DNA from: Candidatus Bathyoplasma sp. NZ
GTDB taxonomy: Bacteria > Bacillota_I > Bacilli_A > MAG-NZ
Reading direction: 5' to 3'
Length of the DNA stretch: 46,670 nucleotides
Assembly (NCBI GenBank): GCA_013332095.1
Contig: JABENI010000003.1
Span: forward strand, 1 to 46,670
Shown here: in pieces, positions 3,072 through 10,407 of the stretch
How the letters are laid out: every line of letters begins with the position of its first letter
Numbering within the stretch: position 1 is the stretch's first letter
Notes under the pieces: generated by a model
Seen by the model: only the letters and a program-made list of their open reading frames with translations
What the model was told of the DNA's origin: nothing
The model's database searches: none
Program-made: the position numbers and the translations under genes

Positions 3072-3723
3072 ATATTTTTCCATCCTGGATATACACAATT
3101 CTCTGACATTGATTAGCAACGTTTTCATCATGTGTAACAATCCCCAGTGTCATATTATATTTTTCAACCATTTTAATCAATAACTTTATAACTTTACTAG
3201 TATTTTTACTATCTAAATTACCCGTTGGTTCATCTGCTAAAAGCAACATTGGTTTATTAATCAATGCACGCGCTATTGCGACACGTTGTTGCTCTCCACC
3301 AGATAATTCTGATGGAAATTTATTTAAGAATTCATTTATACCTAAATCATTTATAATATTATCAAAGAAATCTTTGTCAAACTTTTTATCTGAAAGTTCT
3401 GCAGGCATTTTGATGTTTTCTGAAACAGTCAAAATGTCAATAAGATTAAAAGATTGAAATATTATTCCAATATTATTCAATCTAAAACTATCTATATTCA
3501 TATTTTTTTCTAGTAAACTTTTGCCATTAACTAATATATCACCTGAACTTGGTCTATCTAGGCATGCTATAATGTTCAAGATTGTTGTTTTCCCACTCCC
3601 GCTTTCGCCACATAAAGCACAAATATCTCCTTTGTTGATTACTAAAGAAATATCATTCAAACATTTCGTAACAACTCCCATTGCAGAAATATAATCTTTA
3701 CTTATGTTTCTAATTTCAATCAT
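3061..3723 (-). CDS. ABC transporter ATP-binding protein (MacB/LolD-like)
   Basis: 220 residues, the usual length for a stand-alone MacB/LolD-type ATPase. Visible motifs: Walker A GESGSGKT (39-46), Q-loop Gln 90, signature LSGGEQQ (140-146), Walker B LLLADEPT (160-167), D-loop, and H-loop His 198. The start ATG 3723 has GGAGGAGAAAATA just upstream. It overlaps the permease start by 11 bp and the end of the decayed exporter by 8 bp, so the three genes were once one translationally coupled unit. It energises the permease at 729-3071; the pair probably handles a peptide antimicrobial, but this is inferred from family only. Confidence 0.92.
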
Positions 3724-4187
3724 TATTTTCTCCTCCTATTTTGTAACTCTCGTATTTTGCTTCTAAATCATTGTTAAAAAAATGAGAAATTATAATAATT
3801 ATTTTATTATGTTTAATTTCTTCAATGTATTCATATACTCTTTTTAACGAATTTAAGTCTAAATCTGCCTCTAATTCATCAATAATTATTACATCTTTAG
3901 ACTAAGTAAAATGGTAAAAAGTTCCAATTTCTTTCTTCCTATAGCATTGTAACATTTATTATTACCTAATGCAAAAAACCTGCTACTGATATTAGTGGTA
4001 TCTTTATCATACGTTCAAGCAAGTATATTAATTTATCTTTTTTTACCTTTTCTAGCAATTTCTCAGCAACTAAATTATCATAAAAATGATTATTCTGCAT
4101 GTAGTATGATCCGAGTAATATAATCTTTAGAAACAAGATGTTTGATATCATGACTATCCATAAATATTGAATTGTGTTCAGCATTCA
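3600..4187. repeat. Right copy of ~0.58-kb tandem-duplication repeat (partner 1-582)
   Basis: Direct repeat of 1-582. It differs by a CAG-to-TAG nonsense change near 3903, a 2-bp deletion near 4110 and replacement of the segment holding the ABC signature by a 95-bp patch (3946-4040). Confidence 0.9.
3946..4040. repeat. 95-bp patch, copy A (partner 4710-4804)
   Basis: Near-identical direct copy of 4710-4804 (offset 764 bp), differing at a handful of bases. It sits inside the ATPase half of the decayed exporter and replaces the stretch that carries LSGGE in copy 1. Its left join shares the string TTTATCTTT with the sequence it replaced. Confidence 0.9.
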
Positions 4188-4709
4188 ACTCACGTGTAAG
4201 GAGTTGCAATAAAGTCGTTTTCCCAGCACCATTTGCAACACTTATAATATAGATATTTCCTTTACTAAATTTATAATTTTCGTAAGTCATAGGAATAGAT
4301 TCATCATATTTATAATTTAATTCTTTTATTTCCATTGATGAAATTGAGGCGATTTTAATATGTCCATCTATCTGTTCAAAATTCAAAAATTCATTTGTCT
4401 TTTTGAATGATAATTTCACAAAAACTAACTGTGTTATTATATTTGGAAGAGCACTAAACAAAGATAATAATTTATTTAATACATCATCAAGATTACAAAA
4501 TCATCAAATTCAACACTATTTAGTCCACTAACAAATACCAAAATCAAAACTAACGTTGTTAATATTGATATGAGATTAGAACTCAAAATACTATAGTTTA
4601 ATAAACTTACTATATGAAGTCTCTGATGAAGAATTTTATTGTTTGCTTCACCCATTTTCCTCTCAGCATCATCATTCAAATTGTTTAAAGAAATATAAAT
4701 CCTATTTGA

Positions 4710-5386: not shown

Positions 5387-5426
5387 ATTAATTTCAAGTC
5401 GAGCAATTGCTCGACTTGAAATTAAT
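5387..5426. repeat. Perfect 40-bp palindrome
   Basis: Left arm 5387-5406 (begins ATTAATTTCAAGTCGAG) and right arm 5407-5426 are exact reverse complements with no spacer. It lies ~200 bp beyond the last gene of the six-gene operon. The short palindrome GTGTACAC (5379-5386) abuts it. No T-tract follows on either strand, so it is not a standard terminator. Confidence 0.95.
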
Positions 5427-5623: not shown

Positions 5624-5923
5624 TTAAATGACTTTATCGTATGTAATTCCTTTAAAAATATTATTTGATTTATTATTAAATTCAGTTGTATTTAAGCAAA
5701 TAAAATCAATCGGAATATTTGTGACCTCGTTAATTTCATAAATTATACAACTTTTTAGTGATTGTAAGTTTTTATAAGAAAAAAAATTGGCATCATACAC
5801 AATCATAATATCAATGTCATTATATCTGGGACTATTAACAATTGAACCAAGCAAATAAAAATCTACAAGAAAAATCTTACTTTTTCTTTTTAAAAGGCCA
5901 TAAACAATATTTTTTATGCTCAA
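5624..5923 (-). CDS. Minimal nucleotidyltransferase (MNT/Pol-beta fold), TTG start
   Basis: 99 residues. The family core is visible: GS at 26-27 (YLLGSIVNS) followed by NDIDIMIVYD with Asp 36 and Asp 38, the metal-binding pair of the Pol-beta/MNT superfamily. The start is TTG 5923, supported by a perfect GGAGGTG nine bases upstream; that site lies inside the preceding gene, which it overlaps by 47 bp, indicating translational coupling. MNT proteins transfer nucleotides to protein or small targets and are often antitoxins with HEPN partners; no HEPN-type gene is visible here. It is the last gene of the operon. Its role beside an HNH protein and a 132-aa unknown is open. Confidence 0.8.
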   Translation of the reverse strand: MSIKNIVYGLLKRKSKIFLVDFYLLGSIVNSPRYNDIDIMIVYDANFFSYKNLQSLKSCIIYEINEVTNIPIDFICLNTTEFNNKSNNIFKGITYDKVI

Positions 5924-6275
5924 TATTCAGTGCACCTCCAAATTCCGGTATGGTAAACAAGCCTAGCTCATTAGTTCTGGCTAAACTTTTAGCCTCTTCA
6001 GTATATGAATTCCACATAGAGGCGCATATAATGGTATCAATATTCCTATCATTGCTTAAAATTTCTTGTATATCTGAGACTGAAATAATATATATATTTG
6101 TTAGCCACAGAGTTCTATTTTTTAATCCATACGAATTTTTAATATCAACATCGTATTTTTGCGGGGATAATATATTATTTTTTACAATTTTATCGTGATC
6201 ATCGAGAAATTTCTTGAAAAATTCAATACTTTCCTTTCTTGGAACTTTTTCAAATTTTGGATTTCCATCTGGCAT
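5877..6275 (-). CDS. Uncharacterised 132-aa protein between HNH nuclease and nucleotidyltransferase
   Basis: Family not recognised. The start ATG 6275 has TAGGAGGAAATTAAA directly upstream and follows the HNH gene stop by 1 bp. Mixed alpha/beta composition; the central part (about 55-105) has hydrophobic strands and the run DTIICASMWNSYTEEAKSLA followed by LGLFTIPEFGGALN, which resembles the second half of a small Rossmann or restriction-endonuclease-like fold, but I see no certain catalytic set. The tail WPFKKKK is basic. No membrane segment. The intimate spacing with the HNH gene (1 bp) and the embedded start of the nucleotidyltransferase suggest the three products act together. It could be a nuclease partner or specificity factor. 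Confidence 0.75.
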   Translation of the reverse strand: MPDGNPKFEKVPRKESIEFFKKFLDDHDKIVKNNILSPQKYDVDIKNSYGLKNRTLWLTNIYIISVSDIQEILSNDRNIDTIICASMWNSYTEEAKSLARTNELGLFTIPEFGGALNIEHKKYCLWPFKKKK

Positions 6276-6276
6276 T

Positions 6277-6957
6277 TTAATTTCCTCCTAAAATATTTTC
6301 AAATTCTTTTGGAAAGAGTGGTGCATATGGATCTAACGATTTTGAAATTTTATTAGCAATTAGACCATTTGCATGAAGTTTAAATTTTGCAAGAAGCATA
6401 ATCTCATCATTTTTCAAAAGTGTAATATTTGCGTCAAGCAGTAATATTATTTGATTGTTATTTGGAATTATTGTGTTAATACATTTTTCATCCCATTTTT
6501 CTTTTTTTCTTGTAAATATATCTAAATTCCCAGAGGATGCAGGTCCATAATTTTGAAAAATAACTTTGTTTTCATAAATATAGTTTTCGAATCTCTTGCG
6601 TAATTTATCTCTTGACTCAAAAATAGGAATATCAAATTTTTTTAATAAGTTATTTTTAACATTATTTTTCCAACTCAATAATTTCTCCACATTAAATTCT
6701 CTAGTATTTTGATCAATCATTTTATGGCAACTTCCGCACAAAAGCAGTACATTTTGCGGTTCATCTAAGTCATTTCTCAAATTATTTGCTCTTGGTCCAT
6801 TTAAAGCTTTTGAGTTAATATGCGCAAATTCTCCAACGAAAATTTCCATCTTATCTTCAGAAAACGATTTTAGCAAATATTGTTTACATTCTGGATTCAT
6901 ACACAGCCCAAATCCTTGTGTAATGATTACTCTTTTATTAATCTCAGTAATTGCCAT
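6277..6957 (-). CDS. HNH endonuclease-domain protein with C-terminal unknown domain
   Basis: 226 residues. The N-terminal HNH domain has zinc cysteines C19 and C24, the catalytic-type His 46 (FAHI), Asn 69 (NVLLLC) and C74-x2-C77-H78, the layout seen in HNH domains of CBASS Cap5-like and restriction proteins. Residues ~115-226 form a second domain (VIFQNYGPASSG... IIPNNNQIILLLDAN...) that I do not recognise and that may be sensory or target-binding; it is not a visible SAVED domain. The start has GAGGAGGAAGT 1 nt upstream of ATG. It lies 63 bp after the ATPase gene and 1 bp before the 132-aa gene. Expected to cut nucleic acid; the trigger is unknown. Confidence 0.82.
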   Translation of the reverse strand: MAITEINKRVIITQGFGLCMNPECKQYLLKSFSEDKMEIFVGEFAHINSKALNGPRANNLRNDLDEPQNVLLLCGSCHKMIDQNTREFNVEKLLSWKNNVKNNLLKKFDIPIFESRDKLRKRFENYIYENKVIFQNYGPASSGNLDIFTRKKEKWDEKCINTIIPNNNQIILLLDANITLLKNDEIMLLAKFKLHANGLIANKISKSLDPYAPLFPKEFENILGGN

Positions 6958-7020: not shown

Positions 7021-9054
7021 TTAATTATTATTACAAAATTGCATGTACTTTTTAAACACTTTATTGTCTTGAATAGTTACAAAATTCAAACTCTCCTTCT
7101 TATTAAGTTTTTTATCTACAATCACCTTTTTTAATTCTGAAATCGCCGCACGGTTTTCCAGTGTAGAAAAAACAATTGATTGCATATTCATACCACCTAA
7201 AACCTCTAACATTTTAATTATGTCATTTATATTCACTTCATGTTGCTTCGGCTCATCAAAAATAGTAACAGGAATTTTAAAACCACCGATTTTCAATAAA
7301 CTAATTACGTAAGACCAAATACTCCTAATATTATCGCTTGCTGACGCGGAAACCTTTACTTTGTAACCCTTTGTTTTTGGAATGTAATTATCTTTGTCTA
7401 TTATAACGTCGTTTAATCCTGTACTTCTATAATTGAACATTCTTAAATATGAAACAAATGAATTGCTAAAATCACTTATTTTTATCAAATCGCTTGGTGT
7501 GTGATATGATTTTGGCAATGAGCCAAAATCATTTTCTAACTGTGTTTTTCTTTCGCTATATTTTGACATATCCAGAAAATATTTCTCTAGCTCATCTTTT
7601 AAAGAAATGTATTTTATTAAATCTATTTTATAAATAACTAATCTATCTAATTTGGTTCTTAACTTTTTAATATCACCATAATTAAAATCACCTATTAAAC
7701 TTTTTATTCTTTTTCTATTTGTGTTAATATATTCTTTAATAGCGTTACTTCTAGTTTCAAATCCACCTAACTCTTTATCAATTTTATTTAATCTGAATTC
7801 TAATAACTTCTTTTGTGAAGATAGAAAATTTTTACTTTGTTCTAATGTCATAATATTGCCTTTAACATCATTATATTCATTTATTTTCTGTTCACAGGTG
7901 GGACAAGTGTTTCTAAATAAAACTATATCCATATTTGACCCTAATGTTTGAACTTTGTATAAATCTTTTAAATTTTTAAATTCCTTGATTAGAGAATTAA
8001 TCATAGTTTCAATTAATTTTCTCTCTCCTTTGCACGCAATTAGTTTTGAATATATTATTTCTTGATCCAGTTCCGACTCCAAAACATCTTCTTTTAAACT
8101 CTCAATTTCCTCAATAATGTCATTTGCAATTGTATCTGAATAATTCAATTGTTCTGATTCTATTTTAGAGATATTGTCGGAAATTCTTTTTATTTTCTTC
8201 TCTATCTCAAACTCATTTCCAACATTATCAATTATTTGTAAGTCTGGTACTCCGAAATTAATTTTTAGTTTTTTAGGTGCATTTTTAAAAGACAAATTCA
8301 ACTTGCTTAAACTTAAAAGCATACTTTCTATCTTTGATTCCCATTTCTCTTTTAAAATTTTTGTCTCTGAAAGCAAACGATCTCTTGTCATTTCAGTTTC
8401 AAAAGTGTCAAGCCCCAATAAAAATTCAAAGCCCTTTTTTCGAACATCCTTAATACCAAAATTCCTTGGTGCATTCTCAAACATACCATTCCACCCACTG
8501 ATTTGTTCAATAAATATTCCAGAAAATATTATTTGAAGATATAGTTTTGATATTTTTCCAGAAAAAGTGAAAACATCTGGAATTTCTACATTTATAAATT
8601 TTACGAAATAGGTATGAAAACCCCGTTCATTTTGTGCACTTCCGGACGAGTGAAGATAGTAATCGCTTGATTTACATTTCGTTATATTTTCTAGAGATGA
8701 TTCATAAACCATCACGAGTGAATCAGAAAATTCACTAGATTTAGCGTACCTTAATAATGTAATGATTTCGCTACCATTTGTAATTTCCAACATTATTTTA
8801 CTATATGCTACATCAAATTCTTCATCATTATCATTTATTGCGGTATGGAAGCATGGCTTCAATGATTTGTGTCCTGTATCAGACCCTAACAGTTGTTCTA
8901 AACCTAAAGAATATAGTATTGAGCTGAAAAGTGATGATTTTCCTGAAGAGTTCAAACCAACAATAATATTTAAATTTGAATAAAAGTAAATTTTTCTTCC
9001 GAAAACTCCTGTTTTTGTATAGATATCTACCTTCAATTTATTAATTTTCAACAT
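7021..9054 (-). CDS. Rad50/SMC-like ABC ATPase of an ABC-3C-type system
   Basis: 677 residues. Walker A GLNSSGKSS (33-41); a family-specific segment LYLQIIFSGIFIEQISGWNG (171-190) acts as the Q-loop region; coiled coils ~285-370 and ~395-515 flank a zinc hook CPTC (384-387); a signature-like SASASDNIRSIWSYVISLL (569-587) and Walker B VTIFDEP (596-602) close the ATP site. This is the architecture of DNA-end or DNA-loop binding Rad50-type ATPases, but much shorter. It starts 8 bp after the middle-component gene. In ABC-3C systems such an ATPase senses foreign DNA and licenses an effector; the assignment rests on gene order and architecture, not on a search. Cytoplasmic. Confidence 0.85.
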   Translation of the reverse strand: MLKINKLKVDIYTKTGVFGRKIYFYSNLNIIVGLNSSGKSSLFSSILYSLGLEQLLGSDTGHKSLKPCFHTAINDNDEEFDVAYSKIMLEITNGSEIITLLRYAKSSEFSDSLVMVYESSLENITKCKSSDYYLHSSGSAQNERGFHTYFVKFINVEIPDVFTFSGKISKLYLQIIFSGIFIEQISGWNGMFENAPRNFGIKDVRKKGFEFLLGLDTFETEMTRDRLLSETKILKEKWESKIESMLLSLSKLNLSFKNAPKKLKINFGVPDLQIIDNVGNEFEIEKKIKRISDNISKIESEQLNYSDTIANDIIEEIESLKEDVLESELDQEIIYSKLIACKGERKLIETMINSLIKEFKNLKDLYKVQTLGSNMDIVLFRNTCPTCEQKINEYNDVKGNIMTLEQSKNFLSSQKKLLEFRLNKIDKELGGFETRSNAIKEYINTNRKRIKSLIGDFNYGDIKKLRTKLDRLVIYKIDLIKYISLKDELEKYFLDMSKYSERKTQLENDFGSLPKSYHTPSDLIKISDFSNSFVSYLRMFNYRSTGLNDVIIDKDNYIPKTKGYKVKVSASASDNIRSIWSYVISLLKIGGFKIPVTIFDEPKQHEVNINDIIKMLEVLGGMNMQSIVFSTLENRAAISELKKVIVDKKLNKKESLNFVTIQDNKVFKKYMQFCNNN

Positions 9055-9062
9055 AAAAACAC

Positions 9063-9491
9063 CTACTTAATTTTTTTTACTAATGCTTCTGTAAACCTTT
9101 TTTTAATTGTATCAAAGAATAATTTCTCATCTATGAATAAGTCATCATCTTCAATTATTTTTAATATGAATTCATTTCCTAAATCGGTTATTATAAATTG
9201 AGACTTATCAAAAATTATCAGTCTTGATGATAGTAAAATTTTTAGTACTTTGTAAATTGTGTCATCATTTGTAAATGTGAATTTGTTGGAATTATCACCT
9301 ATGAACTTATAAAACTGATCCCACAAGATTTTATTCCTTATAACTCCATACATAATCATTAATCTTTCTAAAGAACTTTTATTCTTTATACTAGAGAGTT
9401 TTAAAAATAATAATATTACGACAATTTTATAATTCATTTTAGAAACTACGGGCAAATAATACGGTTTTCTTTTAAATGTCACTTTATTCAT
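9063..9491 (-). CDS. ABC-3C-like middle component (small winged-helix-type protein)
   Basis: 142 residues, no signal or membrane helix: the hydrophobic run near 20-33 (KMNYKIVVILLFLKLS) fits a buried helix. The pattern, helical with a C-terminal LSSRLIIFDKSQFIITDLGNEF stretch like a winged-helix wing, and the length match the 'middle component' proteins between effector and ATPase in ABC-3C loci. Its ATG overlaps the effector stop by 8 bp (ATGAATAA), so translation is coupled, and its stop is 8 bp from the ATPase start. It probably bridges effector and ATPase. The assignment is contextual; sequence alone would leave it hypothetical. Confidence 0.7.
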   Translation of the reverse strand: MNKVTFKRKPYYLPVVSKMNYKIVVILLFLKLSSIKNKSSLERLMIMYGVIRNKILWDQFYKFIGDNSNKFTFTNDDTIYKVLKILLSSRLIIFDKSQFIITDLGNEFILKIIEDDDLFIDEKLFFDTIKKRFTEALVKKIK

Positions 9492-10407
9492 TGCATACTA
9501 CTATATTAAAATCGAGCGGGCATTCAGCCAACCAACTCGAAATCAATCCATTAGATAATTCTCTGATGAGTTTTGGATTAAATGATTTTGAGAAAGTATT
9601 TTGAAGATCTTTTAAAATTTCTTTGTGAGTATTGTGTAAAAATACGTCATAATTGTCATTATTCAAACCTGAACCTTCTTCGACTAAATCTTCATTTGAA
9701 TTTTTTAATTCACAATATTCATTATATAAATTTGGATACTCTAGATTTAATTGGTTTAAAGTCAAGATTCCTTTCACATAATAATCTATATACTTCTCTG
9801 TAAATTCTTTGATTAGTTTTTCTGAGTGCAAAACTTTACTGAATTTTCTATAAATATTTTTTACCATCTCGTTATTATTCTTTATTTCATCAAATTTCTC
9901 ATCTGAAATTTCTACATTTAATAAATTTATTTTTTCTTGCGACATCTTATTAATACTTTGCAATTCTGGTGCAACAAAATTAATGTCTTTCAAAATCACT
10001 TCAAAATCATTTGATAATATGTCCAAATTTTTCAGCCGATATTCGGTTTGCTTTTTTGTTGCATACTCAAAAGTTTTTTTATTATTAATACAAGGAGTTA
10101 TCAATATCCACTTCGATATCTTTTGATCTCCCATCAAATTTTTTATTCCGGCCTCATATAACACTAGTTTGTTCAAATCTCCACGTATTTTTCCCCTCAA
10201 GCGTTCGTGCATGTCATTAGGGGTGTATTCAATTTCAGGACAGTAACATTGAAACACTTCTGCATTTGAAATTCCATCTATACCATAATCTCCTTTGTTA
10301 TTTGCTGGAATAGATTTAAAAGAGGTTTTATATTTTTTGTTTAGGCACTTTGAAACTTCTTCTTCCCAATTTCCACTAGTAAAATTACCATATTCGGTTT
10401 TTATCAT
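9484..10407 (-). CDS. Restriction-endonuclease-like effector with C-terminal ABC-3C-type domain
   Basis: 307 residues. The N-terminal ~140 residues resemble a PD-(D/E)XK-type nuclease: NWEEEVSKCL (helix with conserved Glu), GDYGIDGI (Asp 40/Asp 44), then strand EVFQCYCPE, followed by a helix and strands (KWILITPC). The canonical catalytic Lys after the Glu/Gln is not evident, so activity is uncertain. The C-terminal ~150 residues are helical and would be the CTD that docks to the ATPase/middle component in ABC-3C systems. First gene of the operon; its start ATG 10407 is preceded by GGGGGGGAG. It could be a targeting subunit if the nuclease site is dead. Confidence 0.75.
   Translation of the reverse strand: MIKTEYGNFTSGNWEEEVSKCLNKKYKTSFKSIPANNKGDYGIDGISNAEVFQCYCPEIEYTPNDMHERLRGKIRGDLNKLVLYEAGIKNLMGDQKISKWILITPCINNKKTFEYATKKQTEYRLKNLDILSNDFEVILKDINFVAPELQSINKMSQEKINLLNVEISDEKFDEIKNNNEMVKNIYRKFSKVLHSEKLIKEFTEKYIDYYVKGILTLNQLNLEYPNLYNEYCELKNSNEDLVEEGSGLNNDNYDVFLHNTHKEILKDLQNTFSKSFNPKLIRELSNGLISSWLAECPLDFNIVVCNE

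Follow-up and report, generated by a model that had tools for sequence, protein, structure and literature searches.

A conserved three-gene module with an exchangeable effector domain, a protein with one invariant tyrosine and a minimal nucleotidyltransferase: a possible anti-phage or abortive system

Results

Gene organization of the locus

The window, as we call the whole stretch of 46,670 nucleotides that was analysed, carries a three-gene unit lying wholly on the minus strand (5624-6957), in which the gene of an HNH protein is followed by those of a 132-aa core protein, here called X, and of a small nucleotidyltransferase (NTase) (Table 1). One base pair separates the HNH and X genes and the X and NTase genes overlap by 47 bp; the sequence bore out both the extent of the unit and the coupling that had been described for it, namely the 1-bp gap and an NTase ribosome-binding site, GGAGGTG, inside the X gene. 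Upstream of the HNH gene, a Lamassu-like trio on the same strand ends 63 bp before it, and the LmuB of this trio bears a zinc-hook-like CPTC motif. Approximately 200 bp downstream of the NTase gene there is a perfect 40-bp palindrome made of two 20-nt arms with no loop (5387-5426), a possible terminator or recombination site. A near-identical direct duplication of approximately 590 bp (1-583 and 3600-4188), carrying fragments of an ABC ATPase gene, is found on either side of an ABC transporter gene pair.

Table 1. Features of the three-gene module and of the adjoining Lamassu-like operon, in window positions.
Feature	Position	Strand	Description or basis
HNH protein	6277-6957	-	226 aa, ATG start
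Effector domain, Cap5-like HNH endonuclease	6637..6957	-	residues 1-107 of 226; PADLOC, Pfam, Foldseek
All-helical C-terminal domain (CTD)	6277..6624, including stop codon	-	residues 112-226 of the HNH protein; AF2, conservation
Shine-Dalgarno sequence of X, AGGAGG	6284-6289	-	within the 3' end of the HNH gene
X (132-aa core protein)	5877-6275	-	ATG start
Codon of X Tyr62, putative nucleotidylation site	6090..6092	-	Y in 96/96
Shine-Dalgarno sequence of NTase, GGAGGTG	5933-5939	-	within the X gene; read from the sequence
NTase, minimal Pol-beta-type nucleotidyltransferase	5624-5923	-	99 aa, TTG start; Pfam NTP_transf_2
NTase active-site motif GSIVNSPRYNDID (G26, S27, D36, D38)	5810..5848	-	all four residues invariant, 96/96
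Lamassu-like operon LmuA-LmuC-LmuB, separate from the module	7021..10407	-	PADLOC
LmuA	9484-10407	-	PADLOC 4.3e-21
LmuC	9063-9491	-	PADLOC 6.9e-11
LmuB	7021-9054	-	PADLOC 3.4e-74

Domains of the HNH protein

The HNH protein matches Pfam HNH_2 (1.5e-5), and its HNH domain matches the CBASS HNH effector models of PADLOC (down to 9.3e-17) and Cap5 of P. syringae in Foldseek (3.4e-5). The residues H46, N69 and H78, as well as the cysteine ligands C19, C24 and C74, are nearly or fully invariant, and by sequence and predicted structure the domain is of the Cap5 type of CBASS. The Cap5 match ends at about residue 107-131. In the CTD, AF2 predicts helices at residues 116-137, 151-176 and 183-205. Four CTD residues, P139, W155, H195 and P216 (P28, W44, H84 and P105 in CTD numbering), are present in 97/97 sequences. 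We looked for a PDB match with Foldseek and for a Pfam match and found neither for the CTD, in agreement with the original prediction of an unrecognised domain at the C-terminus. A CTD-like domain also occurs in a stand-alone 182-aa transmembrane protein of a Bacteroidota genome (L122, 1387-1935, minus strand), with neither X nor NTase alongside, which hints that the CTD is part of a wider family.

Protein X and the nucleotidyltransferase

Protein X has no match in PADLOC, Pfam, NCBIfam or PHROGs. Its AF2 model (pLDDT 88.4) shows the order H-E-E-E-H-E-H-E-H, which contains the alpha-beta-beta-beta-alpha-beta topology of the PD-(D/E)XK core, and although the Foldseek matches are weak (best E approximately 0.01), they repeatedly have that fold, including MspJI, AspBHI, Cap4, Mrr-like proteins and RPB5, the last being a non-catalytic member of the fold. 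Topology and these low-scoring matches thus point weakly to a PD-(D/E)XK-like protein. An active nuclease was considered and rejected, since the catalytic residues D...(D/E)xK are not conserved among the 96 X proteins: [DE]xK is found within residues 41-80 in only 17 of the 96, and D38 is present in 72, with a proline at that position in the X of the window. A HEPN protein was likewise rejected, as the AF2 fold, H-E-E-E-H-E, is not a helical bundle and X gave no HEPN match. The earlier statement that the locus lacks a HEPN protein therefore stands, and X did not turn out to be a known HEPN or REase with an already described set of partners.

Just one residue of X, Tyr62, is strictly invariant, being a tyrosine in 96/96 X proteins whichever effector they accompany. 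No other hydroxyl-bearing residue is invariant in either X or the CTD. The role of Tyr62 may also be structural. About half of the X proteins have a longer form of approximately 213 aa, whose N-terminal half hhalign matches to the C-terminal half as a diverged copy (probability 95.8, E 8e-9), and the invariant tyrosine is kept in the C-terminal copy only.

The NTase matches Pfam NTP_transf_2 (7.7e-6), and its profile matches AF0614 in the PDB (4.2e-7) and, more weakly, MntA (5yep, 1.5e-3), while PADLOC gave only a weak similarity to PDC-S09 (6.6e-5). The active site has the spacing GS-X7-9-DxD. Since the catalytic residues are invariant in every sequence of the set, control by nucleotidylation, as had been proposed for this locus, is plausible.

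Conservation and distribution of the module

With a profile built from the HNH protein, a single genome per species was scanned across approximately 85,000 species, and the best 80 loci, all of them full-length or nearly so, were taken. In 78 of these 80 loci, the HNH gene is followed by X and a small NTase, in this order and on the same strand; at the other two the contig ends too early, with X still visible in one. Three loci reach a contig end (L012, L027 and L098), of which L027 has no recognisable X in its 545 bp. An apparent loss of X in L086 and L087 proved to be an artefact of the start-codon filter. At another locus (L113), the HNH-CTD gene is intact, X is broken after 34 residues and a transposase gene lies near, representing a broken module. 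A stricter NTase motif was present downstream, on the plus strand, at 86/86 loci compared to 0/86, 0/84 and 0/84 in control stretches. With the NTase found at essentially all homologous loci, its general absence, which would have spoken against the original prediction, was not observed.

Purifying selection acts on each of the three genes (dN/dS 0.04-0.44 in 14 pairs). The core parts are inherited together, their distance matrices being correlated between CTD and X (0.94), CTD and NTase (0.92) and X and NTase (0.90), with a permuted maximum of 0.12. We regard it as virtually certain that this is a real conserved three-gene module.

The module was found in approximately 100 highly diverse bacteria from at least eight phyla, with hosts in Pseudomonadota, Bacteroidota, Actinomycetota, Bacillota, Verrucomicrobiota, Delongbacteria, Hydrogenedentota and Ignavibacteria. 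The HNH-X-NTase order also occurs on plasmids of Acinetobacter, Klebsiella, Novosphingobium, Vibrio, Phaeobacter and Rhizobium and in IMG/VR viral contigs, and many copies are on chromosomal contigs. Distribution within clades is patchy and rare, with 2/369, 3/289, 5/280, 2/278 and 2/277 genomes in five clade samples, where each count includes the query genome and one match is the X-less transmembrane protein L122. Among 392 genomes of the phylum of the window, only the window's own genome carries the module, and one further weak partial match was an unrelated gene. INPHARED phages yielded no relative of either the HNH protein or X, and E. coli complete genomes no DNA match to the Klebsiella copy.

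Exchange of the effector domain

Searches made with X and with the CTD, and not with HNH, revealed loci in which another domain replaces HNH on a kept core of CTD, X and NTase: a SEFIR domain (L110; Pfam 2.7e-11), a calcineurin-like phosphoesterase in three genomes of the order Bacillales (L117-L119; Pfam Metallophos 6.9e-20 for L117 and 8.9e-20 for L118, L119 being assigned by reading the sequence), a HetE-N domain (L120; Pfam 2.3e-29) and a transmembrane segment judged by eye (L104). The CTD is common to every effector version. When plasmids were searched with the effector-swapped proteins, the matches were the HNH modules found before and unrelated SEFIR proteins. In a tree of the joined core, the swapped versions are scattered among the HNH clades and form no single clade, several nodes having low support.

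Since the N-terminal domain is exchanged while CTD, X and NTase stay, these three are the unit of conservation, and the N-terminal domain, as read from sequence, is an exchangeable effector, which can be an HNH DNase, a SEFIR (TIR-like) domain, a calcineurin-like phosphoesterase, HetE-N or a transmembrane segment. The proposal that the genes form a separable module is upheld. The idea that the nuclease is the specific partner of the NTase is not: since CTD, X and NTase are kept when HNH is replaced, only the CTD or X can be that partner. AMPylation is plausible, but its target would probably be X rather than the nuclease, with the invariant Tyr62 as the better candidate. In summary, we consider it likely that the module is a conflict system with swappable effectors.

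Defence genes near the module

Neighbours of the module include Shedu, PARIS AriA, Septu PtuA, HerA, Gabija GajA, PD-Lambda-1, DRT3, LmuA and integrases. On the Novosphingobium plasmid pP6W1 (L005), the module is directly beside DRT3 and near a fused NTase-HEPN gene. In a control of 62 genes distant from the module, on contigs of genomes that carry it, 57 PADLOC models were matched, compared to 119 and 144 near the module; because control genes also match PADLOC, the defence-island context is only suggestive of an anti-phage role. One of the ten control stretches L126-L135 carries Pycsar-like cyclase and effector genes.

Discussion

Proposed mechanism and alternative explanations

The most likely role of the module is that of a modular, effector-swapping conflict system of an anti-phage or abortive kind. 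Effector-swapping cores have repeatedly proved to be immune switches, as in CBASS and the short Argonautes. Because the effector changes while X and the NTase stay, control would have to run via the CTD and X rather than via the HNH fold. MntA, which carries the motif GSX10DXD, adenylylates the HepT toxin at Tyr104 and thereby silences it (PMC7641770), and since MntA is of the same NTase superfamily, the NTase may by analogy modify Tyr62 of X. In this scheme, the CTD and X would assemble as a complex, with X serving as a nuclease-dead adaptor or sensor of the PD-(D/E)XK fold. In the uninfected cell, the GS...DxD site of the NTase would adenylylate X at Tyr62, and the adenylylated X would prevent oligomerisation or firing of the effector tethered to the CTD. 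On infection, the modification would be blocked or reversed by way of the NTP pool, an enzyme of the phage, or phage DNA or protein to which X binds, and the released effector could then attack DNA, NAD or the membrane and halt the infected cell. We think it quite possible, though somewhat short of an even chance, that the window holds the HNH version of such an anti-phage or abortive system with gating by the NTase through Tyr62. That the NTase restrains the effector by modifying this tyrosine is put forward more tentatively. The MNT gene nearly always precedes its partner in MNT-HEPN pairs (PMC3710099), whereas the NTase gene is last here, which counts against a mechanism in the style of HepT/MntA.

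The chief competing explanation is a freely diffusing nucleotide product of the kind known from Clover, Hailong and Panoptes. In this case the NTase would make an oligonucleotide or a cyclic or linear dinucleotide that is bound by the CTD or X and restrains or triggers the effector. Effector swapping and the Cap5-like HNH recall CBASS, and inhibitory NTase signals are known in all three of these systems (PMC12265719), but we consider such a signal unlikely here, as the NTase consists of just one domain of approximately 100 aa, which matches MNTs, neither SAVED nor another known nucleotide-sensing domain was detected in the CTD or X, and the invariant tyrosine of X would be left unexplained. 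The small, overlapping genes, their presence on plasmids and beside integrases, and the existence of MNT antitoxins (PMC7641770) would also suit a stabilising toxin-antitoxin or addiction module, in which the effector is the toxin, X and/or the NTase the antitoxin and no phage is sensed. Immune systems, however, show effector exchange over a constant two-gene core more typically than addiction modules do, and with many copies on chromosomal contigs, this explanation appears less likely again.

The resemblance of X to MspJI, AspBHI and Mrr-type folds, together with DNA cutting by Cap5-like HNH, could be taken to mean that a PD-(D/E)XK-derived X recognises DNA and guides HNH to phage DNA in a restriction-like manner, with DNA ends or tRNA as the substrate of the NTase; yet effectors that are not DNases take the place of HNH on the same core and X has no conserved catalytic motif, making this improbable. 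Finally, the three genes could be accessory parts of the adjoining Lamassu. Given the short distance between LmuB and HNH and no predicted terminator between them, the two may share a transcript in the window, but the window's Lamassu trio is complete without the three genes, no module protein matches an LmuA, LmuB or LmuC component in PADLOC, and the trio was not found at the other module loci, where the only similar genes are distant LmuB-like ATPases in the vicinity of three loci and a lone LmuA match in the genes downstream. This reading is largely refuted already and we give it hardly any weight; the Lamassu operon is a separate system and an incidental neighbour.

Returning to the gating of exchangeable effectors through Tyr62 of X, the module would, if this is true, be the first core to place many effectors under the control of a minimal NTase via a separate adaptor protein, with modification in the style of HepT/MntA rewired as an immune switch independent of the effector. 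That it represents an undescribed immune class, in which an MNT-type NTase reversibly adenylylates a tyrosine of a nuclease-dead adaptor and so gates interchangeable death effectors, is a still more tentative suggestion. The core is compact (approximately 350 codons), two of its three parts, CTD and X, have no family match in the libraries searched, and with a single invariant tyrosine, the central hypothesis can be tested by one mutant. The module looks like an undescribed modular immune or suicide system of bacteria.

Comparison with known systems

Like HepT/MntA, the module has a minimal GS...DxD NTase, related to MntA and with the GSXnDXD type of motif, beside a partner with one invariant tyrosine. 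It differs in that the partner X is not a HEPN protein, a HEPN toxin with RX4HXY being absent, in having a third, swappable effector gene, in the last position of the NTase gene, and in the spacing GS-X7-9-DxD compared to GS-X10-DxD in MntA. With CBASS that uses Cap5 (HNH-SAVED), it shares the Cap5-type HNH, effector swapping over a constant core and a Pol-beta NTase in the operon, but it carries the helical CTD instead of SAVED, has the extra protein X and, in place of a CD-NTase (cGAS/DncV-like), encodes an MNT of approximately 100 aa whose PDB profile matches are MNTs. Hailong, Clover and Panoptes/MISS are alike in the idea of an NTase that restrains an immune effector in uninfected cells, but they appear to use other effectors and NTases and to have no counterpart of the CTD or X. 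The module proteins gave no PADLOC, Pfam or NCBIfam match to proteins of Hailong, Clover or Panoptes, these recent systems being perhaps absent from PADLOC 2023.

The PDC-M68A HNH domain of PADLOC matches residues 4-104 of the HNH protein (3.6e-18), but the match to PDC-M68 ends at the HNH domain, and X has no PADLOC match while the NTase is only weakly similar to PDC-S09. Exchange of HNH, TIR, calcineurin-like and HetE-N effectors on constant parts is seen in the TRADD-N and EAD effector-swapping systems (PMC8195603); in the passages covered, a core of CTD, X and minimal NTase was not found. Lamassu (LmuABC) adjoins the module in the window, but the two have no proteins in common and their association is not conserved.

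The module core has no match in PADLOC, NCBIfam or PHROGs and only generic domains in Pfam. A description of the operon was not found in the literature searched, and an earlier mention is possible because the libraries are dated and preprints and supplementary files were outside the search. In conclusion, the kind of system is known, both as an effector-swapping operon under NTase control and as an MNT-gated toxin, while the core is new to the libraries and papers searched.
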